A stretch of DNA of 64,000 nucleotides from NCBI GenBank assembly GCA_910589415.1, contig OU342630.1, positions 24,647,867 through 24,711,866 on the forward strand, written 5' to 3'. Source of the DNA: Malachius bipustulatus (taxonomy: Eukaryota; Arthropoda; Insecta; Coleoptera; Melyridae). The position numbers and the translations under genes were made by a program. A model generated the notes under the pieces. The model ran no database searches and was not told the DNA's origin. It saw only the letters and a list, made by a program, of their open reading frames with translations. Positions 6,873 through 60,938 of the stretch are shown piece by piece. Each line of letters opens with the position of its first letter. Positions within the stretch are counted from its first letter, which is position 1.

Positions 6873-9800
6873 TTACATCCACTCTAGCAGGCCACTGCTT
6901 TTTAAAAAGCTAATGACCTTAGATGGTGTGAATGTATCCAGGTCTCTCGGAGAGAGAAGTACTTTTCCGAACGTTGAGTGCCTGGTTCTTCCCAAGGCGG
7001 GGCAGTTGCATAGAACATGCTCTGCTGTTTCTACATCCTCCAAACACAGGCGACATTCTGCGTTATCGGCTAGATTCATCCTGTGTAAGTGGTGGTTCAC
7101 TTTGCAGTGTCCTGTGTATAGGCCTATTAGGGCCCTTAGGTCAGTCCTTTTGAGTTCCAGTAGCTTTTTAGCTCTGTTTCTCGAGGGTCCCTCAATGAAG
7201 GTCTTAGAGTGAGTTAATCCTGGTAGAGTTTGCCAGTACCGAAGTACCTTGTTTTCCGCCCAGGTGTCTATTGTTGTTTTGGCAGTATTTGAGGATATGC
7301 CAAGAGCAGGTTCCGGTCCTGTAAATTTGGATTCAGTTGCTCTTCTAGCCAGAGAGTCGGCTATTTCGTTCTCTCCAAGGCCGGAGTGACCTGGAATCCA
7401 GACCAGAGTCAAGTTATTGTTTTTAGCTACCTCATTGAGTGCTGCTTGACAGTTCCATACTAGTTTGGAATTGCAACGAATGGAGCAAAGGGCTTTTAGG
7501 GCCGCTTGGCTATCTGAGAAGATTTTAATTGTTTTCCGCGTGCAGTGCGTTTCATCCAGCATCTGCGCGCTGAGTACAATGGCATAAATTTCTGCCTGAC
7601 ATATTGTTGCGTACTGACCCAGGTTTGCAAAGAATTCTCGTCTTGACCCAGCGTCGTACGCTCCGGATCCAACTCCCGTTGGAGTCTTTGAACCGTCGGT
7701 AAACCATGTGAGGTCTGCTTTGAGGAGGTCGTTTGAGTTACGCTCCCATTCGTCTCTGCTTGGAAAGAGGACGTTGTATGCAGTGCAGTGGTTTGTTGTG
7801 TATGGCATCATGTCTGAGGGCATACCCAGAAGACTGTGACTTTGAGTGTCGTCCAGTAGACTGGTCCGTTCCATGACACAAGCCATTTGTGTGCTTCGTG
7901 CTACCTGTAGTAGTCTGTACGTTGTCCATCTGGCCTCTCTTTCCAAGTATATATGGAGTGGAGGAAGGTCCAGAAGTATTTCCATAGCCGCCGACGGTGT
8001 GGTGCTCATTGCTCCACTGATTGCCAGGCATGCTTGTCTTTGCAGACTTGACAGCTTCATTTTGGCCAAGGCTTGTAAGCCTTTGGACCACCAAGCTACA
8101 CAGCCATATGCGATCATTGGTCTAATGATCGTTACATATATCCAGTGTATTTGCTTGGGACCAGTGCCCCAAGTTCTTCCACAGATCTTTTTGCAACTCC
8201 ATAGGGAGAGCTTTGCTCTGTGGATAATCTTTTCCAGATGGGAGTTCCATAGTAGCTTCCTATCAAGTGTGATACCTAGATATTTAGCCTCCTCCGCAAA
8301 TGGTATAACTACTCCTTGAAGAGTAGGTGGTATAAGGTCTTCCAGCCTTTTTCGTCTAGTGAATGGTACTATAACAGTTTTGCGAGGATTTACAGACATC
8401 TGCTCCCTCTCGCACCACTGATACGTGACTTGAAGAACTTCCTGGAGGACATTGGATATTGTCCTCTCGGAGTTTCCTTTAATCATTATTACAAGGTCAT
8501 CCGCATATGCTTGAACCTCAACTCTCCATAGGGAGAGGATCGCCAGCAGGTCGTCTACAAGAAGGGTCCATAGTAGGGGGGAGAGTACTCCTCCCTGTGG
8601 GCACCCTCTCCCCGGCCTGAAACTGACTTCAACTCCTCCCATCGAGGTCGTTATCATCCTACTATCTAGCATATTACGGATCCAGCCGTTTATGACCGGT
8701 TCTATTCCTCTGGAAACTGCTGCTTCATACAGTGAGTTTGGTAATGCATTGTTAAATGCTCCTTCTATGTCGAGGAAGACTCCCACCATGATCTCTTTGT
8801 TGTCAAGAGACTTGGTGATCTTCCCCACGAGGTTATTAAGTGCCAAATCGGTTGATTTGCCAGCTTGATAGGCATACTGGTGCACATTCAGAGGGTGTGA
8901 AACTAAGACACTCCTCCTGATGTGTACATCCAGTATTCTCTCTAGACTTTTCAGTATAAAGGATGTAAGGCTAATGGGTCTGAATGACTTAGGGTGTGGC
9001 TCTGTACGGCCCACTTTGGGAACGTACACCACCCTTGTTGCCGCCCAGCTGGATGGAATGTAGTTCCATGCCAGACTAGCCCTGAATAATTTTATAAGAG
9101 AGGGCGTCAGTATCTTTATGCCCCTTTGTAATAGGGCAGGAAAGATGCCGTCCTCTCCAGGTGTCTTGAAAGGCTGAAAAGTTTTTACAGCGTTTTCAAT
9201 TGCCTTGGCTGTAATGATCGAGCGGCAGACTTTCCATTCCGATTTTTGAGGTCGATTTATACGTCCTCCGGAATTCAGCTGCCACTGATTGTACAGAGGC
9301 GAGCTACCTGGGAAGTGATTTTCCTTTAGGAGTTCTAACGTTTCCTTTTCTGAGTCCGTAAATGAACCGTCTGGTCGTTTTATCGAGCCAAATGGCTGTG
9401 TCGGATCTCTTGAGAGAATCTTGTGAATTCTGGCGCTGCGGGGCAAATCATGGATGCTCTCGCAGAACCTTCTCCAGGACTCTCTTTTAGATCGTCTGAT
9501 CTCTTTGTAGTACTCCGTTAGCTTAGTTCTGTATTCATCCCAGTTACCCATCTCTTTAGCTCGATTGAAGAGTCGTCGAACTTCTTTTCTTCTTTTCTCT
9601 AGGTCTTTGTTCCACCAGTCGACTTTCCTGTCGTTTCTCTTCGTTTTTGGTGGACAGTTTTCGTGATAGGCTGATATTATTGCGTTCCGGACTTGTTCCG
9701 CCGCAATTTCAATATCATCACGATTTTTTATTGTGGGGATAACGGTCTCAAGTCCAGTCTGGAGGGATTTTTCATATCCGCTCCAGTCTGTTCTTTTTGG

Positions 9801-10559
9801 ATCACGATATTCCACAATAGGTCTATGACCTATTTCGATGTCGAACACTATTTGTCTATGGTCTGAGCAGGAAGGTTCAGAGGATACCTGCCAGTTGGTT
9901 ATCCTATTGCTTATAAAGTTTGAGCTGAATGTTATATCTAGTACCTCCTGTCTATTTTTTGTGACGAAGGTTGGTTTGGAGCCGATGTTATTCACAATAA
10001 GTTTTTCACCTATTATAAAGTTATAGAGCGACTCACCTCTTTCGTTGATGTCCGTGCTCCCCCAAGCTAGGTGGTGCGAGTTTGCGTCACATCCAACGAT
10101 AAGTTGTAGGTTGTTCCCACGACAATAGGCGACCAGATTTCGCACTATTGTAGGAGGAGGTTGTTCGGCAGATCTATCTCCCGGGAAGTATGCTGAGCAG
10201 ACGATTAATTCCGTTCTGCTGTTCCCCACCGGGAGAGTAACTTTGACTGTCGTAATGTCTCGGGCGCAGTAGTCTGAAAGGACATAGAAGTTTAGGTTGT
10301 TCTTGACCAAGATGCAGGCTCTCGGCGAATGCTCTGAGCCGACTGCTATCACCTTGGCAGATAAGTTTCCCAGGCCTCTTATTTTGCCAGACTTGTCCAG
10401 CCATGGTTCCTGGAGTAGCGCAATGTCAAATTGCTCTCTTATGAACCTCCTGCCAAGAACATAACTTGCTGCTGTGGCATGTTGGAGGTTGAGTTGTATA
10501 CATTTTATGTGGGAATTGTGGAGGGGAAATTGGGTGGTAGATTGGGATGTTAGGCACAT
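6873..10559 (-). CDS. LOA-like LINE ORF2: endonuclease / reverse transcriptase / RNase H
   Basis: About 1,228 residues from ATG 10559 (MCLTSQS); the frame stays open upstream to beyond 10637, overlapping the end of ORF1 in the +1 frame. Domains: an AP-like endonuclease over the first ~240 residues (CIQLNLQHA, LLQEPW, GCDANSHHLAWG, SCSDHRQIVFDI); reverse transcriptase centred on FRPISL, VFLDIEGAFNN, GCPQGGVLSPLLW and the catalytic AYADDLVIM near residue 685; RNase H with FTDGSK near residue 954, QAEIYAI, FSDSQAA and WIPGHSGLGENEIADSLA; and a C-terminal CRLCLEDVETAEHVLCNC motif. The enzyme nicks target DNA and reverse transcribes the element RNA there. No stop or frameshift was noticed. The start is uncertain because of the C19 tract 9-27 bases upstream of the chosen ATG. 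Confidence 0.92.
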   Translation of the reverse strand: MCLTSQSTTQFPLHNSHIKCIQLNLQHATAASYVLGRRFIREQFDIALLQEPWLDKSGKIRGLGNLSAKVIAVGSEHSPRACILVKNNLNFYVLSDYCARDITTVKVTLPVGNSRTELIVCSAYFPGDRSAEQPPPTIVRNLVAYCRGNNLQLIVGCDANSHHLAWGSTDINERGESLYNFIIGEKLIVNNIGSKPTFVTKNRQEVLDITFSSNFISNRITNWQVSSEPSCSDHRQIVFDIEIGHRPIVEYRDPKRTDWSGYEKSLQTGLETVIPTIKNRDDIEIAAEQVRNAIISAYHENCPPKTKRNDRKVDWWNKDLEKRRKEVRRLFNRAKEMGNWDEYRTKLTEYYKEIRRSKRESWRRFCESIHDLPRSARIHKILSRDPTQPFGSIKRPDGSFTDSEKETLELLKENHFPGSSPLYNQWQLNSGGRINRPQKSEWKVCRSIITAKAIENAVKTFQPFKTPGEDGIFPALLQRGIKILTPSLIKLFRASLAWNYIPSSWAATRVVYVPKVGRTEPHPKSFRPISLTSFILKSLERILDVHIRRSVLVSHPLNVHQYAYQAGKSTDLALNNLVGKITKSLDNKEIMVGVFLDIEGAFNNALPNSLYEAAVSRGIEPVINGWIRNMLDSRMITTSMGGVEVSFRPGRGCPQGGVLSPLLWTLLVDDLLAILSLWRVEVQAYADDLVIMIKGNSERTISNVLQEVLQVTYQWCEREQMSVNPRKTVIVPFTRRKRLEDLIPPTLQGVVIPFAEEAKYLGITLDRKLLWNSHLEKIIHRAKLSLWSCKKICGRTWGTGPKQIHWIYVTIIRPMIAYGCVAWWSKGLQALAKMKLSSLQRQACLAISGAMSTTPSAAMEILLDLPPLHIYLEREARWTTYRLLQVARSTQMACVMERTSLLDDTQSHSLLGMPSDMMPYTTNHCTAYNVLFPSRDEWERNSNDLLKADLTWFTDGSKTPTGVGSGAYDAGSRREFFANLGQYATICQAEIYAIVLSAQMLDETHCTRKTIKIFSDSQAALKALCSIRCNSKLVWNCQAALNEVAKNNNLTLVWIPGHSGLGENEIADSLARRATESKFTGPEPALGISSNTAKTTIDTWAENKVLRYWQTLPGLTHSKTFIEGPSRNRAKKLLELKRTDLRALIGLYTGHCKVNHHLHRMNLADNAECRLCLEDVETAEHVLCNCPALGRTRHSTFGKVLLSPRDLDTFTPSKVISFLKSSGLLEWM

Positions 10560-10587
10560 GAAGGGTATGGGGGGGGGGGGGGGGGGG

Positions 10588-11922
10588 TTATTTCTTTTCT
10601 GGTGCAGGCCGGGTGGATTTGTCCTTCCCGGTAGCACCAGAGCTTTCTTTCTGTCTGGGGGGGCGGTTCATTTTTCCCTTCCCCCCCTTGTATTTGTGCC
10701 CTGACGGCCCAGGCCGAGGAGGGGCTGTCCCCCTACCAGGCGGTTTGCGGCCGCTCTGATCTGGGGCAACCCGCATCTCGGACGGCCCTGCCAAGGCAGC
10801 TTGATTTGGGCGCTCCCCTGCCAGAAGGGGCGGTTTTTCGCTCACCTTCGGGGGGGCCCGGTCTCTTATCAGACCTTCATTTGGAGGGGCTTTTTGGGCT
10901 ATTCCCCCACCTCGGATCTTAGGGCGGAAAAGCACCCTCCCATTGAGACCGAAGTAGGGTCGGAACCCTAGCCCTTCAAGTCCTTTCATGGACGCTTCGT
11001 CGACGGCGAAGGTCCATGTTTGACCTGGTCCCGAATTTTCGCGGTGTAGAACAATCCACTCCCGCGTGTTCAGAACCGTGTTCATTTTCCTCAGCCTAGT
11101 GAGCACCCTATCCGGAGTGAGACGATTTTCGTCATCATCCGGGATGAAGGCCACACAGATGTGAGGTTTGGGGATCTTATCACCTCTCACCGCTTTTAGG
11201 AGAGCGCCCTCCCACGGTTTAAGGTCATTAACTGAAGCCTCCAACCAGTTGGCGGCCCTCTCCCCGGCGCAGGTAATGAGTAGCCATCCAGGCCGTTTCA
11301 AGCAATGCTCGAATCTGACCTCTGGCCCGCCGTCTGGGATTTCCTCTACAGCGGTCAGGATTGACCTCTGCACAGCGCCCAGTTGCTCGTCACTTAGGGA
11401 CGCCCTCGGATGGTCCGGGTGGATAATCCCAACCCGTACACCCGCGGCAGCGTCCCCATATGACAACTTAGCAGCTCCTTCCTCGCAGGGCCTTTTTGGC
11501 CTCTGTTCAGTTGGAGTGCTTTCCTCCGACCTCCCTCGCTTCGCAGTGAAGGATCGTTCTGGGGGGGTTGTGCCCCTCTCCATTGATCCGGCTGCGTCAC
11601 GTTCGTCGAGGATTATTTTCAAAGCGGTCTGGTAGTCAGTCCCGCTTTTTAACATACGACTAAGCCGTTTCCTTGCGGCTCCGGATAGTCGCGGTTTTCT
11701 TGTTGAAGAAGGGTCCGTCTTATCGGACCCCTCTTCAGTCAAGAGCTTTTCCTGACCCGTAGATTCGGGGATTGGGGACTTTAACGTCGCCCTTTCCCGA
11801 TCTTCCGGGGTCGGACTGTTATTTGGAGTCGGATTTGTACCAATCTCCATTAGTTCTTCCGTTTCCGGGAGATCGAGGGTATGGCTCCCCTCGTCGGAGC
11901 TAAAGTTCTTGTTAGGTTCCAT
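10588..11922 (-). CDS. LOA-like LINE ORF1 protein (DUF4780-type, nucleic-acid chaperone role)
   Basis: A 444-residue protein. I start it at the first in-frame ATG (11922, MEPNKNF) because the longer frame upstream uses only non-ATG codons. The N-terminal third is acidic and low complexity. A basic SGAARKRLSRML segment follows, then a linker with RPKRP, then a globular region from about residue 175 to 350 (SYGDAAAGVRVGIIHPDHPR onward) resembling the insect DUF4780 family that occurs as ORF1 of LOA-type LINEs. The tail is rich in P, G and K. No CCHC knuckles are visible. By analogy it binds element RNA and forms the RNP with ORF2. Its TAA sits at 10588-10590, directly before a 19-C run (minus strand) that lies inside the ORF2 frame. 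Confidence 0.85.
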   Translation of the reverse strand: MEPNKNFSSDEGSHTLDLPETEELMEIGTNPTPNNSPTPEDRERATLKSPIPESTGQEKLLTEEGSDKTDPSSTRKPRLSGAARKRLSRMLKSGTDYQTALKIILDERDAAGSMERGTTPPERSFTAKRGRSEESTPTEQRPKRPCEEGAAKLSYGDAAAGVRVGIIHPDHPRASLSDEQLGAVQRSILTAVEEIPDGGPEVRFEHCLKRPGWLLITCAGERAANWLEASVNDLKPWEGALLKAVRGDKIPKPHICVAFIPDDDENRLTPDRVLTRLRKMNTVLNTREWIVLHRENSGPGQTWTFAVDEASMKGLEGLGFRPYFGLNGRVLFRPKIRGGGIAQKAPPNEGLIRDRAPPKVSEKPPLLAGERPNQAALAGPSEMRVAPDQSGRKPPGRGTAPPRPGPSGHKYKGGKGKMNRPPRQKESSGATGKDKSTRPAPEKK

Positions 11923-12443
11923 GTGGTTCCCACGAGAAGCTAGGGAAAATGATGTTCCCCGAAACCAGAGCCCTGCATGGAATGGGGAGGCTATGTACAA
12001 CGGGGTTTCGCCCGGTGCCCCGAGGTTAGGTCCAGTAGAGACTGGTCTCCTATCCAGCCACGCATCCTATCAGCCTGGACCTCCGCTTTAGGATTTAGGT
12101 TTTTGATGAGGTTGTCTCCTCTTGGTTCAGGCGGTTAAGCCAAAACCCCCACATCTCTCTGCTCGCGAGACATGTCCACGGCAGCAGAGAGATACGGTTT
12201 AACGGATAGTCAACAATTAGACGTTCTCCGGCGCCGTAAGAAACCCCTGTGCAAACCCTTTAGTCACGACACGACAACTAGGTTGGGGGAGGTGGTCCGC
12301 GGCAGGGCTTTAAGCTGCCAGTCTGGAGTTTTAAATCCGACGAGCTCTATCACCGCTGCTAACCTCACTCACTATCGATCACTGTGAGGCCGTTCCCTAT
12401 CCGCCACCTGGGACGCGCCTGATGGGTACCTCAACCACACAGG
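11923..12443 (-). promoter_or_regulatory. 5' UTR of the LOA-like LINE (presumed internal promoter)
   Basis: About 520 bases from the element's 5' end to the first ORF1 ATG, with no long frame. In LINEs this region normally contains an internal promoter; no specific promoter element is proved here. The block TTGGCTTAACCGCCTG (minus strand, 12128-12143) is conserved exactly at 62719-62734 in the diverged relative, at a comparable place ahead of ORF1, suggesting a constrained RNA or DNA element. Confidence 0.5.
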
Positions 12444-34767: not shown

Positions 34768-37556
34768 TGTAATCACCCAACCCCGGGTCCGCTTATCTGT
34801 GTGAGAAAAGCTCACTTCCCTTCCCCTTTCCCTTTGGCCTAGTCGTGATGTGATCGTCAAAAGTGGTTAGAACCCTTCTTCCACAAAAAAAATACGTTGT
34901 GTCGCCCGTAATAACTTCAGTTGTTTTCAAATGGAGTTGTTAAAGAAAAGAGGGCAGCGCGCGATTTTCACCTATCATTGTTCATTACCAGACTTTCAAA
35001 AGAGAGTGAACTGAACGTTAAAGTATTTTGTTTTAACTCGAGAGAAATTTAATTTTCCTAAGCAAGTTTTGAATTTTCTACCTCAAGAAAAATTAGGGAA
35101 ACAACCCGCGACACTTTTCATCTATTTTCAAACTGGTCGCAGTTTGTTTAACCTAATTACATTTTTTTGTTTAGTAATTTTCATGTTTTACATTTTTTTT
35201 TCTCTTTCATTTTGAATTAGGTTAACCAACCTTACAAGTTTTATTTTAAGTATTTAATATAATATCAAGTTAAGTGACACTTTCTTGGTCTAATTATTTA
35301 TGGTAATTATAATACAATTATTTCTATATAACATAATTCATTATTCTTCCAGCTCAAAGTTAAATTTATTATCTCCTTTTTTTCCGGAAGGTCGTCTAAG
35401 TGGACGCCACCTGTTTGTCTGAGATTTGTTTTCGTGTTAGGGTGGATTTCAGTCGTGCGACGTTGCCATTTTGCAAGTCTGTTATTTATTTATGCTGGCT
35501 TCAGCGTCGTGAGTGTTTTTAATAATTCTTTCCACAAAAATACATCGTGACTATGCAAATATTACGCTAGAGTTTTATACCTTGGAAATACCTTGTTAAT
35601 AAATTGTCGAAGTTTATTTGTAACCTGTTGTTTCGTGAGTACTCATTGTGGGTAGAGTTTATTTCTCCCAGAGTTTCTCCGAATTACCTTGTTTAATAAA
35701 TTGTCAAGTTTATTTGTGACCTGTTGTTTCGTGAGTACTCATTGTGGGTAGAGTTTAGTTCTCCCAGAGTTTCTCCGAAATACCTTGTACCTTAATTATG
35801 AAAATACCTTGTTTGGTTATTATACCTATACGGGTTTGTGAGACCCTTATACCTTTTTCCACTTTCATATTTGTGCCTATGAAAAGTGTCTCTGTTGCAG
35901 TAATTTTGATAGTCACTGAGTATTCTCGAAAGAAGATTTATTTAATTCACATCAGTTAAATATCCAACAAGCGACTGTCATTTTGACTCTAATATTTCGC
36001 TATTTTGCTGAATTTATTTGAATTTTAAGACGTGAGTTCTTTCAGAGATAAATCGCCAAAACTCGACTCTCCACACAGACCTAGAGACTCTAGACGACGA
36101 CGATATGGTCCTTAGTAATATGTTTGCGAGTATCATTTGAGATCTCATTACTGTAAGGCCATTTAACCCTTTTTAGAGAACCAGGATGCTTCGAGTTCCG
36201 TTAAGGTTGATTACTTGAAATTACTCGCTGTCACTGTCCAATGTGGACTAATGAACGATTTTGTTTTATTTTGATTTTTTAAAGTTTTCTTTCTTTCCTC
36301 GTTTTTTAAATTTCCATGAAATTGCTCTGCAACTTCACGTATTGCGTTTAACTAGCCTCAAGACATCAGTCACGAGATAGATATTAGGTTAAAATTTGCA
36401 CCCACCAGAATAAATAATTTCCGTGTGATTTGATCATTTTGAATTGATTTTTCTGAACTGATTTTAATTTTGGAAATTTAACTTTGACCTTGGTCGAATA
36501 ATGTTATTTTCTAACATTATAAAACTTTTAATATTTAAATGAAAAATCCTAATTATTAATATTTACATTTTACTTAATCAATTTTACTAACTTCTAAAGT
36601 CTGGCAATTTACAATATTATATTAACTAACCTGGAGGAATTTCGCAGTCTACCGTCTCTACAACCGACGCAGTTCGCTTCTTAGGCTTCATTTTGCAACT
36701 ATGCAAGTGACACCCCAGCTGATTTGGTTTGTTTATCTAAAGACAGTTCAAGAGGTCGTTTAGCACGAAGGGTGCCTGTGATGTGATGTCCCGTTACGGG
36801 GACTGGCGCCTGGCGGTCTCGTGAAATTTAATACACCCGAAAACTATACCTACTCAGAAGTTTTACAATTTAAAATAATTTAATTTAGGCGAAGATTATT
36901 GATGAATTTTAATATTTGAATATTTAAATTTTGTTTGATTTTATTAATTTGGATATTTTACTGGAAAACCTACACTTTGCTCGATTATAGAAGGTACTCC
37001 CAGTCATGGGCTGCCGCGACTACAATCGACCAAAAAGTAGTATATCAGGAAAGAAAGAGACAATTACAAGTTGAGCGTACTCCCAATCATGGGCTGCCAG
37101 AACAATATGCAATTGCCAGGTAAGCGTACTCCCAGTAATGGGCTGCCGGCAAACCTGTTCTCTCTCAATCCGTCTGATCTGTTACTCGAGCTTCCGACCC
37201 TTTATATACAATTTTCTACTCCTTTCGCCCCTTCCCTAGGAATCTGGCCTACGTGATCTGCTTATCGTTTGTTCCCCTCTGATGAACGAATTCGTTCTTT
37301 AAGTCGTGTATACCTACTAAAGAATTTATTAACTTATTTATATTTTTCCTCAACCTACAATTTATTCTTTTGTTTATTGTACTAATTATACTAACAATAC
37401 TCCTAATAATAATAATAACAATAATAACAAGAATACTAATAATAATCTTTCCTACTGTATAGTTATATCTGTTTAATTCTTCTTGGATAATTGTTTCAAC
37501 AATTTTATAGGGGTATTATTTTCATAAAACTTCGTACCTGGGTGTGGTCCATTTCA
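34768..37556 (-). repeat. Gypsy 3' LTR (2,789 bp)
   Basis: Begins (plus strand) TGTAATCACCCAACCCCGGG and ends GTGTGGTCCATTTCA. It contains two tandem 96-bp units (35589-35684, 35685-35780) starting TACCTTGTT, and three copies of GTACTCCCA-TNATGGGCTGC at 36994, 37077 and 37126. Both features are also in the other LTR. Low-complexity AAT/ACA repeats occur near 37395-37440. This length is several times the usual gypsy LTR. Confidence 0.95.
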
Positions 37557-37629
37557 CCGGCCTGCTCGACTTATAGAAAAATATTTGTACGAATTTTTTC
37601 TGTAAGGCGCTTGATTACGACTCCTGTCG

Positions 37630-38346
37630 TCACCTTTTTCGTTTTGTTCTTCTCTCTATTCTTCTGGAGATACCCCGGATAATTACTTGATCCACAACGT
37701 AAGATAATTTTGTTAACGTCATTACTGGTCGAAAGCGAGTGGTGGTTCTTGGTTCCCTCGGATCGGTGACGCTGGTATCTCCCGTTATCCGCTGGAGTGG
37801 AATGATTTTAGGTCTTGTTGGTGGCGGTAACCTGGAGCACGGAGGCGGTGGTAATTTGGGGTATTCTACGGAACACGGAGGCGGTGGTAGACTGGGGTCT
37901 TCTATGGCACACGGAGGCGGCGGTGGTAGCTCAGCTACTCCAGGAAGTGCATGAGTCGGTGATGGTGGCATGGGCGTCGGAGTAGGCGCTCGGCTGAGTG
38001 GCGGGGTTTCTAGTGGTTCGGCAGTTGTTGGTATGATTGGCGGTGGTGATGCGGGTGGCGATAGAGACAGCGCGGAGGTGGTAATAATTTCGGTTGGCGG
38101 CGGGTATGGGGTGAGTAGGTCGCAAGCACTGATACGTCGAATGGATGGTCTAGTTAGTCGTGGGTCCGAGTAAATCCTGCCGCGTACCACTTTCACTAGT
38201 TCACCTGTCTCGGCGGATAAGCGAACTTCTACGAATCCCGATTCTTCGAATTGCGGGTACAATCCGGCTTCGTAAAGTATATGTTCAATGGATTTACCGG
38301 GAGTTTCGGGTCTATCGAGGTCTTCGAATCCCTCGAAGTCTTCCAT
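37630..38346 (-). CDS. Proline-rich accessory ORF of the gypsy element (unknown function)
   Basis: About 238 residues from ATG 38346 (MEDFEGFED), lying where gypsy errantiviruses have env but with no signal peptide, furin site or membrane segment. The first ~75 residues look folded (GKSIEHILYEAGLYPQFEES, FVEVRLSAETGELVKVVRGR). The middle is Pro/Thr/Ser-rich. LPPPPC repeats with ED/EY spacers occur at about residues 140-175 (ELPPPPPCAIEDPSLPPPPC). The end is strongly basic (RRIERRTKRKR). It overlaps the end of integrase. It could be an RNA- or chromatin-binding accessory protein; I do not recognise the family. Confidence 0.7.
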   Translation of the reverse strand: MEDFEGFEDLDRPETPGKSIEHILYEAGLYPQFEESGFVEVRLSAETGELVKVVRGRIYSDPRLTRPSIRRISACDLLTPYPPPTEIITTSALSLSPPASPPPIIPTTAEPLETPPLSRAPTPTPMPPSPTHALPGVAELPPPPPCAIEDPSLPPPPCSVEYPKLPPPPCSRLPPPTRPKIIPLQRITGDTSVTDPREPRTTTRFRPVMTLTKLSYVVDQVIIRGISRRIERRTKRKR

Positions 38347-38845
38347 GTTCACGATTAGACGCGTGTCGATGAACTGGAGGATAATATAAAACTAACTGAG
38401 TGGCATTAAAAATGCCTAAGTTTTTTCCAGATGATGGTTGTTTCAAGAGATAAGCGTTGGTGTTAGGTTGTCCCTCGACAATGTAAGGGCCGCTGAAGAG
38501 GTGCGAGAATTTCTTGGTTTTGCCTGCAATAGTATCCGATGTTGGAGCTGTTTTTAATAACACCATATCTCCATATCCAAAGTGGCATTGTCGTTTCTTT
38601 CTACAACGTGCTCTTCGTCTGGCCATTTCTGTCAGGTTACGCTTGACTAGTTCTCGAATTTCTGTTACGTCTTGTTCAGGTACTTGTGGCAAGAGTGGTT
38701 TTATCGCTGGCCCGAGGAGCCCTGCTGTGCGTCTCCCTGATACAATTTGCGTTGGTGAATAAGCTGTTGACATATGTGGGGTATCGTTGAAACACTTCTC
38801 TATATCGTTCAAATAATCGGCCAGGTTGTGTGTCGTTGACTGCAA
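38312..38845 (-). pseudogene. Gypsy integrase C-terminus, displaced frame of pol
   Basis: Continues integrase after the frame change at about 38825: DYLNDIEKCFNDTPHMSTAY, SPTQIVSGRRTAG, then a long helix with many Arg, FGYGDMVLLK, and the GPF/Y-like module KFSHLFSGPYIVEGQPNTNA. This belongs to pol. Only a single-base shift separates it, and both sides are otherwise intact. The last 35 bases overlap the start of the next ORF. Confidence 0.85.
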
Positions 38846-41175
38846 TATGTTCGAAAAAAACGTCCTAGCTCTCGCATATACCTTTCAGCTGGGTTAGATG
38901 CGGCGTTTCTAATTGACGAGAATATTACTTGAATACCCTCTTCTTGCATTGTTACTTTCCATTGAATTGACGTAAATTGGCTTCCGTGGTCACTTAATAT
39001 TCTCTTTGGTTTGATAATCGGGAATAAATCCTTTTTTAGTCGTTGTATTGTAGCGTACGTGTTAGCTTTCTTTAAGGGCATTAATTTTACATATTTAGAG
39101 AATACATCGACCGCTAGTAATATATATTGGACTCCCCCGCGTCCCCTTGGTAGTGGTCCATAAAAATCGATGGCTACTAGATCTCCTACATTGTCAGGTA
39201 TTATTGCTTGTAAAGGTCCCTCATGTTGTGCGTTTCGATGTTTAGTACGTTGGCAAACGTCGCAAGTTCTGATTATCTTCCGAATATGCCTTCTCATGCG
39301 TGGCCAGTGAAAATATTGTTGTACCTGCTTCGCTACTTTGGCCGCACCGAAATGTCCTAGCTCCTTGTGGTAATGCCAGATTAAATCCTCCTGAATTATT
39401 GTAGGTACCGCTAGTGTTAAACGGTTCTGAGTTGCATCGCGATGTAGTATAATGTTATTATTAATGCAATAATCTTGGTATTTTCGGTTATTATTTTCGT
39501 TGTCCTGATTCTGTAAGGCTTGCCTCACAAGTTGCAAGTGTGTATCTCCCTGCTGTAACTGCGGTAGTCGGCGAAGTTGTCGTAACATGTCATTTGTTGT
39601 ATCTACTCGGATCGGCGCGACTAGAGCGGTTATCTCCCCAGCATATTTCGCATCTCTATCAGTAGGAAATCTTGATAATAAGTCGGCTACCTTGTTCTGT
39701 ACTCCGGGGATGTGTTCTATTTGCAGATCGAATTGTTGTAGGAATAATAACCATCTGGTGAGTCTTTCGTTAAGAAAGCGACACTGACTTAAAAACGTGA
39801 GGGCTTTGTGGTCTGTTCTGATAATAACTTTCGTTCCCTGTAGGTAGATCCGGCATTTTTGAACTGAGTGTACAATGGCAAATAATTCTTTTTCAGTTGT
39901 AGTATATGACAGTTGACATGGTTGTAGTCCCTTACTAATGAAGGCTACGACTTCTTTTTCTTGTGCATCATTTATCTGGTACAATACGCCCCCAAGCCCA
40001 AATTGAGAACTATCAGTTTCTAAGTAAAACGGTCTACTTAAATCCGGGTGTATGAGCATTACGTGATCCAAAAATCGTTGTTTTAATTCTTTAAAAACTC
40101 CAGCTTCAGTCTCACCCCAACTCCATTTGTTTTCCTTTTTAAGTAAGTGCCGGAGCGGTCGCGTATATTCACTGAAATGATCACAGAATTTTCGGTAATA
40201 ATTGCAAAGTCCCAAAAATGCTCGAAGGTCCTTCAGTCTTTTTGGTGTCGGAAAATCTCTAATTGCAGTCGTTTTCTCTGGATCCATGAGTATACCCGTA
40301 GGCGTAAGGATATGGCCTAAGAATGGTACTTGTTGTCGTAAAAAAGTTGATTTTTCTAGGTTTATTGTCATATTAGCGTCTTTAATTCGTTCAAATACTC
40401 TTCGAAGGTGTTGGATGTGTTCTTCGAATGATTCGGAAGCGATTAGTAAGTCGTCGATATAGTTGAACGTAAATTCCCGGACGTCATGTCCTAGTACTAT
40501 GTCCATGCATCTCGAAAATCCTGCAACAGCTGTTTTTACTCCGAAGGGTAATACTTTGTATTGGTACGTTCTGCCATTATAAGTGAAAGCTGTATATTGT
40601 TTACTCCCTTCCTCTAATGGAATTTGCCAATAACCACTCGTTAAATCCAGACTGGATAATTGAGTACGTCCGTGAAATTGTTGACGTAGCTCGTCTGCGG
40701 GTGGTGGACTTTCCTGATCCGAAATCATTGCCTCATTAATACCTCGAGCGTCTAAGCAGATCCTAATTTGTCCATTTTTCTTTCTAACTACCGTCATGGG
40801 ACTTGAATAAGGTGACGCGGCTCTCTCAATTATACCATCTTCTTCCATTTGTTTGAGAGTCGCTTCTACAGCTGGCCGTAAAGTAAAGGGTACCGGATAC
40901 GATTTTCTCAAGATCGGGCGATCGTGCGTCAAGGTTATTCGGTGTTGGTATTTTTTTGTCAGTCCTGGGCGGTCGCTAAGGAGATATGAGTATTCCTGAA
41001 GCAGCGATTTTAATTTTCGGTGCTCGTATGCTGATAAATTCGCATCTTCTAATTTTTGTTGTATCTGTTGCTCTAGGTTAGGCGTAGGTACGTTAATAAA
41101 ATTCGTATAAGTCGTGTTCTCGTAGTCTATGGGACTTCCTAAGATTTGCTGATCCTTAGTTTGTTTTAAATGGAA
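38809..41175 (-). CDS. Gypsy Pol: RT, RNase H, integrase (frameshifted near the end)
   Basis: The frame is open from just after a TAG near 41178 to 38809; the first codons overlap the protease end, and no ATG start is expected. Motifs: SPYSSPMTVVRKKNG, LSSLDLTSGYWQIPL, FNYIDDLLIAS (catalytic YIDD near 40455), FLGLCNYYRKF; RNase H with LETDSSQFGLGG, TEKELFAIVHS and RTDHKALTFL; integrase with HKELGH...CDVC zinc finger, AIDFYGPL, LSDHGSQF and NPAERYMRELGR (D-D-E). After HTTWP the frame runs into a stop, but the continuation is open one base away at 38845-38312. In so young an element this is probably a fresh 1-base deletion or a sequence error. Confidence 0.9.
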   Translation of the reverse strand, partial: FHLKQTKDQQILGSPIDYENTTYTNFINVPTPNLEQQIQQKLEDANLSAYEHRKLKSLLQEYSYLLSDRPGLTKKYQHRITLTHDRPILRKSYPVPFTLRPAVEATLKQMEEDGIIERAASPYSSPMTVVRKKNGQIRICLDARGINEAMISDQESPPPADELRQQFHGRTQLSSLDLTSGYWQIPLEEGSKQYTAFTYNGRTYQYKVLPFGVKTAVAGFSRCMDIVLGHDVREFTFNYIDDLLIASESFEEHIQHLRRVFERIKDANMTINLEKSTFLRQQVPFLGHILTPTGILMDPEKTTAIRDFPTPKRLKDLRAFLGLCNYYRKFCDHFSEYTRPLRHLLKKENKWSWGETEAGVFKELKQRFLDHVMLIHPDLSRPFYLETDSSQFGLGGVLYQINDAQEKEVVAFISKGLQPCQLSYTTTEKELFAIVHSVQKCRIYLQGTKVIIRTDHKALTFLSQCRFLNERLTRWLLFLQQFDLQIEHIPGVQNKVADLLSRFPTDRDAKYAGEITALVAPIRVDTTNDMLRQLRRLPQLQQGDTHLQLVRQALQNQDNENNNRKYQDYCINNNIILHRDATQNRLTLAVPTIIQEDLIWHYHKELGHFGAAKVAKQVQQYFHWPRMRRHIRKIIRTCDVCQRTKHRNAQHEGPLQAIIPDNVGDLVAIDFYGPLPRGRGGVQYILLAVDVFSKYVKLMPLKKANTYATIQRLKKDLFPIIKPKRILSDHGSQFTSIQWKVTMQEEGIQVIFSSIRNAASNPAERYMRELGRFFRTYCSQRHTTWPII

Positions 41176-41782
41176 TTTCTATAGTATTGTCGTTCCGGTA
41201 TATCATAATAATTTTCCTTTGGAGGTTTATAATACACTGGTTCATTGTTAACCAATCAGTTCCTATAATGATCGGTTTACTTAATTCTGGTATTACTAAG
41301 CAGTTTAATTCGATAGAATGCCCTTCTACTTGTGCTTTAATGCGTATTTGTTGACTAATCCTTTTACTATGTTTGCTAAAAGCACTCTGTAGCTGAATAG
41401 AACGTAGCGGGAGGACGGACATAGGAGTTTGATTTTGTTGCAGTGTCCTATAATAATTTGCGGACATCCCAGTGATTTCGCTCCCAGTATCAATTAATGC
41501 TTTTACGTTTTGATTTCCTACTGTTAGTTCGATTTCAGGTGATTCTCCCGGCGTCTGTCGAGACATGGTATTTACTTGAGGAAGGCTTAAAAATTTTCTA
41601 CCGTCTGCCTTAATGGGTTCGCGAATTCCCTGTAGGTATTTCCCTAATCCTTGTCCTGGCTTCCATCCTTGTAATTTTAAAATTTTCCATCCTATGTTTG
41701 TATGTTGTAGAGTATTGTCCGAATGTAAATTTTCTGGTGGTGTCTTGTCGTGGTAAGGAGGTCCATTTTTCGGTGGCGTCAA
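41156..41782 (-). CDS. Gypsy protease with N-terminal G-patch
   Basis: About 208 residues as counted from a TTG; there is no need for a start because it should be reached by -1 frameshifting from gag, whose end it overlaps. Residues about 28-62 form a G-patch (IGWKILKLQGWKPGQGLGKY, then REPI), an RNA-interaction motif. The aspartic protease follows: ALIDTGSEITGMS (active DTG) near residue 95 and IIIGTDWLTM near 175. The protease matures Gag and Pol. G-patches are known beside the protease of betaretroviruses, there on the C-terminal side; here it precedes the protease. The ORF ends in TAA at 41156-41158, overlapping pol by about 20 bases in the +1 frame. Confidence 0.85.
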   Translation of the reverse strand: MTPPKNGPPYHDKTPPENLHSDNTLQHTNIGWKILKLQGWKPGQGLGKYLQGIREPIKADGRKFLSLPQVNTMSRQTPGESPEIELTVGNQNVKALIDTGSEITGMSANYYRTLQQNQTPMSVLPLRSIQLQSAFSKHSKRISQQIRIKAQVEGHSIELNCLVIPELSKPIIIGTDWLTMNQCIINLQRKIIMIYRNDNTIEIPFKTN

Positions 41783-41796
41783 ATCACAGGACCGTG

Positions 41797-42908
41797 TTAA
41801 TTTGACGACGCGAAGTTTCCCTGACGCGTTCGGTTATGGTTTGCTTCGTTTGAATCGTTATTACCGTGGTTTTTGCTATGATTTGCGGGGCGCGAGTACG
41901 GCGAAGCTTGAGTCCTGCCCTGCCTGACGAGTGAACCGGCAGGCCTGCTGAAATTTACGATGTCTTCTTGAGTTTTGAGAAAAGCAGCTGCGTCGGCTAG
42001 TGATCGCTGTGACGTAAGTGACCACAATGCCTGTATGTGTGTCGGGTAATGACGCATTAAACTAATCACTAATTGTTCCTCAGGTATGGGTTCTGTTAAT
42101 TGTCGGGCCATGTGAACGTAATAAGCGAAATGGCTGCACATCGAATGTCTATTACTCCACACTGCAGTACCTATCTGATGTCGTGGTTTGTTTTGCTCCT
42201 GCGCAGACCAGAAATTTCTTAAAAAGTCTTGTTTAAAATCCTCGTAATTTGTCCACGTTTGTCTGTATATTGCTGACCAATGTTTCGCGTGTCCTTGTAG
42301 ACCTTCAAGTGCCGTTTCTAATTGTTGATCGGCCGCTATGCCCCTTTTCTGAAAATACCGTTCTAATTCTTCAATATACTGCAGTGGACCTGTCCCTCCA
42401 AATCTCTTATCAACGTATCGCGGTGGATTGTCGATCTGTGTGTATAATATGGCCGGCGCAGTTGCCATGGATGCCGTCCCGCTTGCATTTGACATAGCAG
42501 TTGACCCTCTATGACATGAATTTATTTCTCGCGGCCCTACTGAACTAGCAGTTATGTTAGTTGAATTTTCTTCGTCTGTTTCCATTGCCTGAGTCGCGGT
42601 TTGTTCCCTAGCCATCCTAATTTGGTTTCCTTGGATTAATTGATTGATTTCAGTACAAAAAGCTGATTGTAGTGCCTGCATTGCCATTCGTTGTTCTTCG
42701 AACATAGCTTTTATCCATCCCCCTAATAAACCTGTCTCCGCCGTTACTAACCGATTTCCTACCACCTCTTGTTGCACCGTCCCGTCCTGTATCTGGCTTG
42801 GTATTCCCTCCGAAATGGTGACTTGCTCCGTTCCCGATCCTACTGTCTCGTCCGTCGATTGCCTTGCGATTGACTCTGTCGGACTTGGCAACGATGTTTG
42901 AGGAATCG
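41797..42908 (-). CDS. Gypsy Gag polyprotein (main exon)
   Basis: About 370 residues. The N-terminal ~150 are low-complexity Ser/Thr/Glu-rich. A capsid-like region follows (ILYTQIDNPPRYVDKRFGGT, YIEELERYFQKRGI, LQGHAKHWSAIYRQTWTNYE, FLRNFWSAQEQ), matching the retrotransposon-gag pattern. The tail is basic and rich in N, H and R (NHSKNHGNNDSNEANHNRTR). No CCHC zinc knuckle is present; the basic tail may replace it in RNA binding. There is no AUG before about residue 68 of this frame, which points to initiation in the LTR exon after splicing. The protease frame overlaps its end in the -1 frame. It forms the virus-like particle core. Confidence 0.85.
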
Positions 42909-42989
42909 CTGGAGGAATTTCGTAAAAAAAATTAATTTATTATTTTGTTTCTACTCCTGTCCCCTTATCTTTGCCTCTTTTTCTCCATC

Positions 42990-43007
42990 CGCACGTCAAC
43001 GGCACCA
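42990..43007 (-). other. Gypsy primer-binding site
   Basis: One base inside the 5' LTR, the minus strand reads TGGTGCCGTTGACGTGCG. Its TGG start and position fit pairing with a tRNA 3' CCA end. The tRNA is not identified. Minus-strand DNA synthesis of the element would start here. Confidence 0.7.
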
Positions 43008-43008
43008 A

Positions 43009-45797
43009 TGTAATCACCCAACCCCGGGTCCGCTTATCTGTGTGAGAAAAGCTCACTTCCCTTCCCCTTTCCCTTTGGCCTAGTCGTGATGTGATCGTCA
43101 AAAGTGGTTAGAACCCTTCTTCCACAAAAAAAATACGTTGTGTCGCCCGTAATAACTTCAGTTGTTTTCAAATGGAGTTGTTAAAGAAAAGAGGGCAGCG
43201 CGCGATTTTCACCTATCATTGTTCATTACCAGACTTTCAAAAGAGAGTGAACTGAACGTTAAAGTATTTTGTTTTAACTCGAGAGAAATTTAATTTTCCT
43301 AAGCAAGTTTTGAATTTTCTACCTCAAGAAAAATTAGGGAAACAACCCGCGACACTTTTCATCTATTTTCAAACTGGTCGCAGTTTGTTTAACCTAATTA
43401 CATTTTTTTGTTTAGTAATTTTCATGTTTTACATTTTTTTTTCTCTTTCATTTTGAATTAGGTTAACCAACCTTACAAGTTTTATTTTAAGTATTTAATA
43501 TAATATCAAGTTAAGTGACACTTTCTTGGTCTAATTATTTATGGTAATTATAATACAATTATTTCTATATAACATAATTCATTATTCTTCCAGCTCAAAG
43601 TTAAATTTATTATCTCCTTTTTTTCCGGAAGGTCGTCTAAGTGGACGCCACCTGTTTGTCTGAGATTTGTTTTCGTGTTAGGGTGGATTTCAGTCGTGCG
43701 ACGTTGCCATTTTGCAAGTCTGTTATTTATTTATGCTGGCTTCAGCGTCGTGAGTGTTTTTAATAATTCTTTCCACAAAAATACATCGTGACTATGCAAA
43801 TATTACGCTAGAGTTTTATACCTTGGAAATACCTTGTTAATAAATTGTCGAAGTTTATTTGTAACCTGTTGTTTCGTGAGTACTCATTGTGGGTAGAGTT
43901 TATTTCTCCCAGAGTTTCTCCGAATTACCTTGTTTAATAAATTGTCAAGTTTATTTGTGACCTGTTGTTTCGTGAGTACTCATTGTGGGTAGAGTTTAGT
44001 TCTCCCAGAGTTTCTCCGAAATACCTTGTACCTTAATTATGAAAATACCTTGTTTGGTTATTATACCTATACGGGTTTGTGAGACCCTTATACCTTTTTC
44101 CACTTTCATATTTGTGCCTATGAAAAGTGTCTCTGTTGCAGTAATTTTGATAGTCACTGAGTATTCTCGAAAGAAGATTTATTTAATTCACATCAGTTAA
44201 ATATCCAACAAGCGACTGTCATTTTGACTCTAATATTTCGCTATTTTGCTGAATTTATTTGAATTTTAAGACGTGAGTTCTTTCAGAGATAAATCGCCAA
44301 AACTCGACTCTCCACACAGACCTAGAGACTCTAGACGACGACGATATGGTCCTTAGTAATATGTTTGCGAGTATCATTTGAGATCTCATTACTGTAAGGC
44401 CATTTAACCCTTTTTAGAGAACCAGGATGCTTCGAGTTCCGTTAAGGTTGATTACTTGAAATTACTCGCTGTCACTGTCCAATGTGGACTAATGAACGAT
44501 TTTGTTTTATTTTGATTTTTTAAAGTTTTCTTTCTTTCCTCGTTTTTTAAATTTCCATGAAATTGCTCTGCAACTTCACGTATTGCGTTTAACTAGCCTC
44601 AAGACATCAGTCACGAGATAGATATTAGGTTAAAATTTGCACCCACCAGAATAAATAATTTCCGTGTGATTTGATCATTTTGAATTGATTTTTCTGAACT
44701 GATTTTAATTTTGGAAATTTAACTTTGACCTTGGTCGAATAATGTTATTTTCTAACATTATAAAACTTTTAATATTTAAATGAAAAATCCTAATTATTAA
44801 TATTTACATTTTACTTAATCAATTTTACTAACTTCTAAAGTCTGGCAATTTACAATATTATATTAACTAACCTGGAGGAATTTCGCAGTCTACCGTCTCT
44901 ACAACCGACGCAGTTCGCTTCTTAGGCTTCATTTTGCAACTATGCAAGTGACACCCCAGCTGATTTGGTTTGTTTATCTAAAGACAGTTCAAGAGGTCGT
45001 TTAGCACGAAGGGTGCCTGTGATGTGATGTCCCGTTACGGGGACTGGCGCCTGGCGGTCTCGTGAAATTTAATACACCCGAAAACTATACCTACTCAGAA
45101 GTTTTACAATTTAAAATAATTTAATTTAGGCGAAGATTATTGATGAATTTTAATATTTGAATATTTAAATTTTGTTTGATTTTATTAATTTGGATATTTT
45201 ACTGGAAAATCTACACTTTGCTCGATTATAGAAGGTACTCCCAGTCATGGGCTGCCGCGACTACAATCGACCAAAAAGTAGTATATCAGGAAAGAAAGAG
45301 ACAATTACAAGTTGAGCGTACTCCCAATCATGGGCTGCCAGAACAATATGCAATTGCCAGGTAAGCGTACTCCCAGTAATGGGCTGCCGGCAAACCTGTT
45401 CTCTCTCAATCCGTCTGATCTGTTACTCGAGCTTCCGACCCTTTATATACAATTTTCTACTCCTTTCGCCCCTTCCCTAGGAATCTGGCCTACGTGATCT
45501 GCTTATCGTTTGTTCCCCTCTGATGAACGAATTCGTTCTTTAAGTCGTGTATACCTACTAAAGAATTTATTAACTTATTTATATTTTTCCTCAACCTACA
45601 ATTTATTCTTTTGTTTATTGTACTAATTATACTAACAATACTCCTAATAATAATAATAACAATAATAACAAGAATACTAATAATAATCTTTCCTACTGTA
45701 TAGTTATATCTGTTTAATTCTTCTTGGATAATTGTTTCAACAATTTTATAGGGGTATTATTTTCATAAAACTTCGTACCTGGGTGTGGTCCATTTCA
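43009..45797 (-). repeat. Gypsy 5' LTR (2,789 bp)
   Basis: Same sequence as the other LTR, offset 8,241 bases. It should contain the promoter (minus strand), although I cannot place the start site. It also holds a short ATG-initiated exon with a splice donor at 44872-44932. Confidence 0.95.
44872..44932 (-). CDS. Probable first coding exon of gypsy gag, inside the 5' LTR
   Basis: ATG at 44932-44930 begins 20 codons (MKPKKRT... ending EIPP) plus one base, followed at once by GTTAGT, a plausible splice donor. The main gag frame at 42908 begins just after CCTCCAG, a plausible acceptor preceded by a T8 run, and the phase matches. The 14-base string CGAAATTCCTCCAG stands at both sites. The main gag frame has an in-frame stop shortly upstream and no ATG for about 68 codons, so an external start is needed. 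The intron would be 1,963 bases and remove the rest of the LTR and the primer-binding site. The identical exon is in the 3' LTR (36631-36691). Confidence 0.55.
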
Positions 45798-58788: not shown

Positions 58789-59084
58789 ACGTGATACATA
58801 AATAATTTTATTTCATACAAAATGAAATATAAAAACCAAATCTGTTGGTTTTTAAAACTAAACGAATAATAATGCTTTCTGATTATTAAACGAATGTTTT
58901 TAGTAATTGAGTAAGCATGATTATTGATTACTATGGATATATCAACTGAAAAGTTTATAGTAGAATATGTTTATAATTACGGTAACCAAGGGTTTATCTA
59001 TAGTTAGAATGTACGAGTATTAGTATGAAAATAAATGATAGCTATTTATGATATTAGTGTTAAAAGCGAGGTTGAAAGTGAAGT

Positions 59085-59170
59085 TTTATTTTGTGAGTGA
59101 AAAGGTTTGTGAAATGAGCGAAGCGTAGCGGAGCGAATTTAACAAATTTCACGAATAAATAAAATCACTT
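59085..59170. repeat. Hairpin with a GAGCGAAGCG-type loop
   Basis: AAGTGAAGTTTTATTTTGTG (59085) pairs imperfectly with CACGAATAAATAAAATCACTTTT (to 59174). The loop core AGCGAAGCGTAGCGGAGCGA (59117-59136) matches 3983-4002 at all but one position. Unknown function. Confidence 0.6.
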
Positions 59171-59651
59171 TTAAGACGAATATCATACAATGGTTTTTGT
59201 AAAACTGCTCTATTATGATAATAAAATTGATGAATTTAGAATGACACTCAACTTCAAATTGCATTTTAAAATATTACAGATAACAACAAATGTACTATGC
59301 ATAGCAACCGTTGCCGACGCTATGGTTACTAATAAATGCGTGCATACAAATAAAAGAAATGTCATAATAATTATTATTAATTGCAATTTCTGAACAATTA
59401 TTATTGTCTTGAATACTTGACTAGGTACTTATTTTTTATTAATATGTTTGCCAGTAATAAAAAGAATATGAAAAAATCTTACTACCTATAATTTTGTCTT
59501 TATAATTATTTTTATTGAACCACTTATTTGATTATATAATATATTTGATGAATTTTATTGGGACTTAGGTTCTAATTTAAATTTGCCACTAAAGATTCTT
59601 TACAGAACAAATTAGAAAAACTTTCGTACAGCATGCGAGGAGAAGACTGAA

Positions 59652-59699
59652 GACATGGACGGCACCGTTTCGTCCTTATTATGGACTCATCAGCATATC
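59652..59699 (-). ncRNA. Hammerhead ribozyme (left arm)
   Basis: The minus strand has the same sequence as the right-arm ribozyme: CTGATGA at 59693-59687, stem II GTCC/GGAC with a 7-base loop, GAAA, a short stem III, and GTC at the cleavage site, with stem I GATATG/CATGTC. All conserved core positions are present. Predicted to self-cleave RNA transcribed from the minus strand. Confidence 0.88.
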
Positions 59700-60604
59700 A
59701 TATCAGTCAGCTCTAAACCACACATGCTATACGAAATTTAGAAGTTGTATCTATTCTAACTGGTGTTTTCGTTTTGTAGTGACCTTTAATTTTCAAATGA
59801 GTGAGTAGGCAACCAGAGAAACGTGCGTGTCTTTATATAGTATTATCCTCGCTATAACAGTAGAGTTTTCATGGATTTATGAATTTTACACTACTAATGC
59901 AGAGGTTTCTATTAATTCAAGAACTACACATTGATTCTCATAAGTATATACCTACCCACATTCATTTTCAAGCTAATTTTATTGAATTTTTACTGATGTG
60001 TGTTTATAAATTAGATGTTAATACACGAATTAAGATGTTATGGCACATTTTTTCACCCTGGCCTTTTTAGATTTATAATTATTTTTATTGAACCACTTAT
60101 TTGATTATATAATATATTTGATGAATTTTATTGGGACTTAGGTTCTAATTGCAAGCTTAGAACCTAAGTCCCAATAAAATTCATCAAATATATTATATAA
60201 TCAAATAAGTGGTTCAATAAAAATAATTATAAATCTAAAAAGGCCAGGGTGAAAAAATGTGCCATAACATCTTAATTCGTGTAGTAACATCTAATTTATA
60301 AATACACATCAGTAAAAATTCAATAAAATTAGCTTGAAAATGAATGTGGGTAGGTATATACTTAGAGAATCAATGTGTAGTTCTTGAATTAATAGAAACC
60401 TCTGCATTAGTAGTGTAAAATTCATAAACCCATGAAAACTCTACTGTTATAGCGAGGATAATACTATATAAAGACACGCACGTTTCTCTGGTTGCCTACT
60501 CACTCATTTGAAAATTAAAGGTCACTACAAAACGAAAACACCAGTTAGAATAGATACAACTTCTAAATTTCGTATAGCATGTGTGGTTTAGAGCTGACTG
60601 ATAT

Positions 60605-60652
60605 GATATGCTGATGAGTCCATAATAAGGACGAAACGGTGCCGTCCATGTC
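60605..60652 (+). ncRNA. Hammerhead ribozyme (right arm)
   Basis: Plus strand: stem I GATATG (60605-60610) pairs with CATGTC (60647-60652). The core CTGATGA is 60611-60617. Stem II is GTCC-ATAATAA-GGAC (60618-60632). GAAA is 60633-60636. Stem III is ACG/CGT with loop GTGC, and cleavage is expected after C60646 of GTC. Every invariant base of the hammerhead consensus (C3, U4, G5, A6, G8, A9, G12, A13, A14, A15.1-U16.1, H17) is met. The very short stem III is the minimal form known from metazoan retroelements. Confidence 0.9.
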
Positions 60653-60843
60653 TTCAGTCTTCTCCTCGCATGCTGTACGAAAGTTTTTCTAATTTGTTCT
60701 GTAAAGAATCTTTAGTGGCAAATTTAAATTAGAACCTAAGTCCCAATAAAATTCATCAAATATATTATATAATTTTGTCTTATTTCATCATGAGAAAATG
60801 TAGTTCAATGAGAGAATGTAAGTACAGAAAAAGTAGATAGAAT

Positions 60844-60938
60844 TACTTTTAACACGAGTGTTGTAAACTACTTGTCTTTTAACACTAGTGTTAAAAGTAC
60901 TTTTAACACGCTTCCATGTAAACAATCACTTTTAACAC
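60844..60938. repeat. Cluster of CTTTTAACAC motifs
   Basis: Four plus-strand copies and one inverted copy of CTTTTAACAC lie within 95 bases, two of them forming the palindrome CTTTTAACACTAGTGTTAAAAG at about 60875-60896. Isolated variants occur elsewhere (55378, 14930). Could be a protein-binding cluster or a decayed transposon end. Confidence 0.5.

Follow-up and report, generated by a model that had tools for sequence, protein, structure and literature searches.

The window, a 64,000-bp stretch of the Malachius bipustulatus genome (contig OU342630.1, forward strand, positions 24,647,867 to 24,711,866), carries at positions 59499 to 60773 two head-to-head arms of a noncoding unit of 572/573 bp, comprising 1.14 and 1.08 units, respectively. 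Unit positions are numbered in the ribozyme sense, with u1 at window position 60157. Arm A (59499 to 60150), with its sense on the minus strand, starts 2 nt upstream of u1 and has its outer 3' end at u77, in what is called here the tail (T) zone. Arm B (60157 to 60773, sense on the plus strand) begins at u1 and extends as far as u45 of the following unit, with its outer 3' end in the tail-less (S) zone. The tail is a 32-nt segment (59499 to 59530, minus strand) that corresponds to u46 to u77 and is found on arm A only, and a 6-nt filler, GCAAGC, to which no strand is assigned, occupies the head-to-head junction (60151 to 60156). Unit spacing is 573 nt in arm A and 572 nt in arm B; in the sense direction, the first 79 nt recur at the 3' end of arm A and the first 45 nt at the 3' end of arm B. 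A previous interpretation made without database searches (the sequence-only reading) had described a hammerhead element with a 573-bp monomer and greater-than-unit arms that would fit circular or multimeric RNA, and the spacing, the arm lengths, and the full ribozyme core in both arms support that description. The element has a GC content of 31.4%, and the longest reading frame listed between 59487 and 60781 is 71 amino acids from stop to stop, in agreement with the earlier expectation that a helper is required.

A possible RNA polymerase II promoter, TATATAAA, was found in arm B (60465 to 60472, plus strand) with an initiator-like TCACT at 60500 to 60504, as a motif match made without a control. 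This motif was compared with the pLTR promoter as described in the available text of PMC3846280. The common 5' end of the two window arms was considered as an RNA start or a palindrome effect, an idea that was dropped, as 5' ends elsewhere fall anywhere in the unit; the coincidence is taken as accidental. Rfam matches to microRNAs and other small RNAs in the window were rejected, being the palindrome center scored as a hairpin, with all values under the gathering scores. Other short inverted repeats, made of TTTTAACAC and GTGTTAAAA, flank the insertion region at 59040 to 59190 and 60838 to 60905. Elsewhere in the window there is a LINE (6873 to 12066, minus strand) with endonuclease, reverse transcriptase (RT), and RNase H in a 1,264-amino-acid frame and a 492-amino-acid frame upstream; a protein search with its RT returned five organism-named relatives among the matches listed (120 of 144), all of them from insects. 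A Gypsy-like element at 35585 to 45687 has RT, RNase H, and integrase domains, and within it a tandem repeat with a 96-bp period and TAA repeats are found twice, at a distance of 8,241 bp, an arrangement consistent with the two copies being its long terminal repeats (LTRs).

The paired arms are flanked by a 14-bp direct repeat, TATAATTTTGTCTT, at 59487 to 59500 and 60768 to 60781 (no strand assigned to either copy). The last 2 nt of the left copy and the first 6 nt of the right copy may equally be unit sequence, and the repeat is reduced to 6 bp once every overlap with the unit is subtracted. Among 19,929 random position pairs used as a control, none reached 14 bp and the maximum was 12 bp. 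The single insertion with a target-site duplication (TSD) that the sequence-only reading had envisaged was upheld, as was the flanking of the paired arms by a direct repeat; the element ends at 60773 rather than 60768, and the repeat measures 14 bp rather than 11 bp.

Long palindromes are prone to assembly error, and a collapsed inverted repeat had been named beforehand as a possible source of this structure. Arms A and B differ by three substitutions in 617 aligned positions and by one 1-nt indel (u128, u147, u208 [the indel], and u273) and hence do not represent one sequence assembled twice, yet they share private variants at u408 and u485. Their outer ends differ, a TSD flanks the pair, and the same design recurs at 31 further loci whose flanks are different. 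An assembly artefact is therefore given a negligible probability.

Each arm contains a type I hammerhead ribozyme, at 59652 to 59699 in arm A (minus strand, predicted cleavage after C59658) and at 60605 to 60652 in arm B (plus strand, predicted cleavage after C60646). Both have CUGAUGA, a GUCC/GGAC stem II, GAAAC, a short stem III, GUC, and a stem I of 6 inner and 6 outer bp. A structural motif scan of the window picked up no site besides these two, and 60 Markov-simulated windows yielded none at all. The Rfam model Hammerhead_1 (RF00163) scored both arms at 28.1 bits (E = 3.4e-4) against a gathering score of 34, and a search at the gathering threshold gave no match. In isolation the ribozyme is predicted to fold most stably into a pairing (-21.5 kcal/mol) other than the hammerhead (-17.0 kcal/mol), so the core, the subgathering Rfam match, and conservation are the grounds for the assignment. 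Ribozyme pattern scans of viral contigs and prokaryote genome contigs returned nothing, as expected for an animal element.

To place the window copy within a family, the host genome (544,256,285 bp in 52 contigs) was searched with arm B as the query, giving 127 matches from the best 40 of 1,446 candidates. The 40 loci mapped (39 fetched loci plus the window) derive from the best-scoring matches only, and long or well-matching copies are overrepresented among them. The search yielded dispersed insertions, most with TSDs, and not the plain tandem satellite that would have told against an inserted element. Head-to-head arms were found at 32 of the 40 loci; the remaining eight (L031, L043, L048, L056, L057, L059, L061, and L062) have a single arm, with TSDs of 14 and 15 bp at L043 and L062. 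All 32 adjacent opposite arms are in the minus/plus order and none in the plus/minus order. The inverted fusion, which the sequence-only reading considered unusual, is instead the prevailing form among the mapped copies, and an inverted head-to-head arrangement is also a form published for animal Penelope insertions, according to the available text of PMC3846280. Nor is the element a fixed inverted dimer: arm lengths range from under 0.2 to almost 5 units, the longest being 3.44 and 4.98 units, and 36 of 76 arm pieces have one ribozyme and 8 have none. The 32 head junctions comprise 16 with an overlap of 1 to 16 nt, one blunt joint, and 15 with 1 to 51 nt of filler. Later inserts and these junction fillers (51 nt at most) aside, no inverted stretch or foreign DNA was seen in the mapped arms, although shorter pieces could escape notice.

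Inserts beginning with CAG interrupt arms at TA in L042, L046, L037, and L031/L047, near u33 to u41 or the T end, as if the AT-rich end region were a frequent target of Tc1/mariner-like elements. In arms cut by later TA inserts (L042, L046, and L047), the flanking pieces were joined by coordinates only. A G/A variant at u12 splits the family nearly evenly (23 loci with G and 19 with A, some having both) and may mark two sublineages.

The hammerhead core is intact in 111 of the 112 pieces of mapped family copies that span it. Divergence was 0.10% in the ribozyme block (u436 to u510) and 0.60% overall (Poisson probability, 1.8e-5), making this block the most conserved of the six unit blocks compared and about six times more conserved than the whole unit. 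In 110 of the 112 pieces, stem III is CGGTACCG, a perfect palindrome; the other two are those of the window, where stem III reads CGGTGCCG and the private variant at u485 is a G within the stem. Palindromic stem III loops occur in hammerheads that act as dimers, as set out in the available portion of PMC7229834.

Across the family, the outer (3') ends of the arms cluster in two zones, u31 to u54 (S) and u75 to u86 (T). In each of the 30 pairs whose two outer ends could be read by script, an S end is combined with a T end (17 pairs in one orientation and 13 in the reverse); the script zones (u30 to u56 and u74 to u90) were defined after the ends had been seen. If the ends were independent and each zone had a probability of 1/2, this outcome would by arithmetic have a probability of 9e-10. 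A 31st pair, L046, is T/S by eye and stands outside the count; its right end may carry a further later insert. L037 was left out because an insert hides one end. TSDs of 12 to 16 bp flank 25 of the 30 pairs, 10 of them with exactly 12 bp; in the other five (L047, L049, L050, L052, and L069), the scripted rule detected no TSD of at least 6 bp. The longest repeat among 870 mismatched flank pairs was 11 bp. When the TSD was removed from the 25 pairs that have one, S ends lay at u31 to u49 and T ends at u75 to u85. The simplest reading of the TSD lengths is a 12-bp stagger plus extra microhomology. The pairing of S and T ends matches the optional tail of 30 to 40 nt known from Penelope-like elements (PLEs), and inverted head-to-head ends, such a tail on one end, and a TSD are all present in the element. 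The Penelope link made by the sequence-only reading is supported.

A noncoding element flanked by inverted arms and short direct repeats could also be a DNA foldback transposon or a miniature inverted-repeat transposable element (MITE) that has long terminal inverted repeats and acquired a hammerhead. Equal terminal inverted repeats are not what is found: arms at the same locus are unequal in both length and outer end. These unequal ends and the multiunit arms already refute a foldback or MITE origin, to which the single-armed loci and the 5' ends lying anywhere in the unit also run counter, and we consider it highly improbable.

The arms of one insertion share a haplotype. Divergence was 0.28% within arms (89 comparisons), 0.29% from arm to arm at a locus (99 comparisons), and 1.24% between loci (8,800 comparisons). 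The variant comparison covered 28 pair loci and the length comparison 27, with interrupted loci omitted. Of 190 comparisons between arms at seven shared variant sites, 189 were concordant (142 expected under independence), as were 26 of the 27 in which a minor allele is present; the sole discordance is between the window arms at u273, a family-polymorphic site. Fourteen locus-private variants, spread over 10 of the 28 pair loci, including the window, are present in every unit of both arms. When partner arms were swapped among the 28 pairs, the observed similarity was never reached in 2,000 permutations. Among the variants of these 28 loci, 66 occupy every unit of both arms, 70 are restricted to a single arm, and 1 is found in both arms without reaching every unit; we ascribe the 70 single-arm variants to mutation at a later time or to errors of copying. 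Conversion is possible between inverted repeats, and gene conversion after insertion, rather than a common template, would then account for the likeness of the arms. The copies are young, however, at 0.60% from the consensus, and the variants confined to one arm have persisted, so we judge conversion to be quite unlikely as the source of the likeness.

Identical arm haplotypes would also result if a target-primed first arm folded back and its cDNA copied itself as the second arm, and self-priming of this kind was proposed for the Adineta vaga Penelope element in the available text of PMC3846280. An arm copied in this manner could neither outgrow the first arm nor end at its own start zone. Yet of 27 pairs, 14 have a longer S arm (with an excess of at most 884 nt) and 13 a longer T arm (at most 1,039 nt). 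Either arm can thus exceed the other by more than one unit, and lengths within pairs are uncorrelated (Spearman coefficient, 0.10), which argues against the second arm having been copied from the first, as do the two different end zones of all 30 pairs. Such a fold-back origin is considered improbable.

With one template as the likely source of both arms, its form can be narrowed. Of the 73 arm 5' ends examined, which are scattered over the unit, a single one lies 5 nt or less from the cleavage site; this site is also crossed by 112 pieces. A cleaved linear monomer is thereby excluded. By this sequence evidence, a ligated circle and an uncleaved multimer remain as candidates. The multimer would be a linear, multiunit transcript of a homogeneous genomic array that is used with PLE-type two-sided priming, comparable to the Anolis PLE acting on unprocessed RNA. 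Hammerhead cleavage was not required by the purified protein of that PLE in vitro (PMC11167929, text available in part), and, as arrays are internally homogeneous, a linear multimer would leave haplotypes no different from those of a circle, so that haplotypes by themselves cannot tell the two apart. Copies made from such a transcript could only shorten, yet arms of 3.44 and 4.98 units exist in a family in which many pieces have a single ribozyme or none. A circle is favored because arms reach these lengths without any inverted stretch or source flank (fillers of 51 nt or less aside, and with the caveat that shorter stretches could be missed) and because the ribozyme block is the most conserved part of the unit. 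We therefore hold a linear multimeric template to be possible but doubtful.

Candidate sources of the protein are plentiful in the host. All 150 GIY-YIG matches scored, out of 775 candidates, exceed the cutoff, and many lie in open frames of 823 to 855 amino acids arranged as tandems of about 3.3 kb and as minus/plus pairs. The domain, the frame length, and the form of the arrays suggest that these are PLEs. Contig C11 (84,009 bp) has 24 matches between about 3,382 and 82,839, mostly at a spacing of about 3,327 bp, with six on the minus strand followed by 18 on the plus strand and an 833-amino-acid open frame in 21 of the 24; it looks like a head-to-head PLE array. In one GIY-YIG family, two complete head-to-head pairs have ends at q950/q911 and q909/q953, so that each pair, like those of the unit, combines a longer and a shorter end about 40 nt apart. 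A third pair, L079/L080, was dropped from this count, as L079 is without a simple end (L080 ends at q951). The target sites of these PLE pairs are AT-rich repeats, and the 17- to 18-bp repeats seen there say little. The start regions of six sampled PLE-like families all have a hammerhead-like core just upstream of the frame, with CTGANGA followed by GAAAC in five and by GAAAT in one, as found with a loose pattern without a control. No clear sequence match was obtained between the unit and these six start regions: the full unit scored 34 against L071 (best of 40 shuffles, 32), and u560 to u100 scored 30 against L076, no higher than the best shuffle, and included an exact match of 15 nt (E = 0.025). 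These weak scores are regarded as due to chance.

Inverted arms, S/T pairing, TSD length, one haplotype per insertion, a conserved ribozyme, and same-ended insertions of a host GIY-YIG family can all be read from the genomic copies. We think it likely that the element is a noncoding hammerhead retrozyme mobilized in trans by Penelope-like machinery. The template, a single RNA that is most likely circular, would undergo two-sided target-primed reverse transcription. Arms having at least two ribozymes in direct tandem would be transcribed, and hammerhead cleavage would free a 573-nt monomer that is ligated into a circle. A PLE RT-GIY-YIG complex on this circle would make a staggered cut in AT-rich DNA, offset by about 12 bp and exposing two 3' ends. 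Each end would prime on RNA of the same haplotype, zone S (about u31 to u49) serving for one and zone T (about u75 to u85) for the other, and each cDNA would travel the template for anything from part of a lap to several laps. The cDNA ends would then join head to head via microhomology or a short filler, with the fill-in of the stagger giving the TSD. The circle, the protein, and the first three and the last of these steps, as events, are what we infer. The five of 30 pairs without a TSD of at least 6 bp, the eight single-armed loci of 40, the discordance at u273, and the 70 single-arm variants count against this explanation, as do the failure to find a clear match between the unit and the six sampled PLE-like families and the dispensability of hammerhead cleavage for the purified PLE protein in vitro.

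On balance, we incline toward a more specific version in which each insertion would record one hammerhead-made RNA circle, copied simultaneously or in turn by two RTs from both 3' ends of a single 12-bp staggered cut, with starts about 40 nt apart and up to several laps, that is, bidirectional rolling-circle target-primed reverse transcription. The autonomous PLEs of the host, with tandem units of about 3.3 kb in head-to-head arrays, may copy their own RNA likewise. Any mechanism of PLE integration must explain the rule of one S and one T end per insertion, and the family offers a system for testing this rule. Its 40 loci also provide sequence evidence for two proposals, PLE-driven movement of animal retrozymes and the use of their circular RNAs as templates, along two lines: a PLE end signature on a noncoding hammerhead element and one haplotype throughout the tandem units and both arms.

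An inverted segment can arise by twin priming in LINE-1, when both target 3' ends prime on the RNA; this happens now and then, at two internal positions of a single linear mRNA. The element would share the priming from both ends and the inverted segment that results, but in its case this is the common form, with two set zones. Plant LTR retrozymes resemble it as hammerhead-driven nonautonomous retroelements with a proposed circular intermediate. They have type III hammerheads, LTRs, a primer-binding site (PBS), a polypurine tract (PPT), and a 4-bp TSD according to the available text of PMC7229834, in contrast to the type I hammerheads and longer TSDs found here.

Metazoan non-LTR retrozymes (Cervera and de la Peña, 2020) are closer. 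Like them, the element is noncoding and low in GC (31%), forms direct tandem units (in arms of up to 4.98 units), and has a type I hammerhead with canonical stems and loops and a short stem III with a tetraloop, scored by Rfam below the gathering value as given above; its TSD also exceeds 4 bp, and PLE-like frames are present in the same genome. Movement by PLEs with circular RNAs as templates was proposed by those who described these retrozymes (PMC7229834 and PMC7761336, both available in part). In the same texts, metazoan retrozymes are direct tandem repeats yielding RNAs of about 170 to 400 nt, and the element differs from them in size, at 573 nt, and in arrangement, being head to head with an S/T end pair; the discussion in PMC7229834 allows circles of 150 to more than 1,000 nt. 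The word "inverted" is absent from the main text of PMC7229834 in the form available. No head-to-head retrozymes appeared among the titles and abstract beginnings listed for literature combining retrozymes, hammerheads, or PLEs with inverted or head-to-head structure, and we do not claim that the arrangement is unpublished.

PLEs of the Penelope/Poseidon type (A. vaga Pen2a, Anolis PAc, and the host GIY-YIG families) share with the element head-to-head arms, a tail of 31 to 40 nt on one outer end, a short TSD, and a hammerhead upstream of two RT start sites. In PAc, both target strands are cut and extended by the protein, and two adjacent internal RNA start sites bound the tail (PMC11167929, available portion). 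Unlike PLEs, which are defined by a telomerase-like RT joined to a GIY-YIG endonuclease in a single frame, the element encodes neither RT nor endonuclease, and its unit is 573 nt long, not about 3.3 kb, and bears no clear similarity to the six sampled host families. Its hammerhead has a stem III, whereas the cores of those families look minimal by eye. We file the element as retrozyme-like in its makeup and PLE-like at integration; it is not itself a PLE, since it has no RT or endonuclease of its own.
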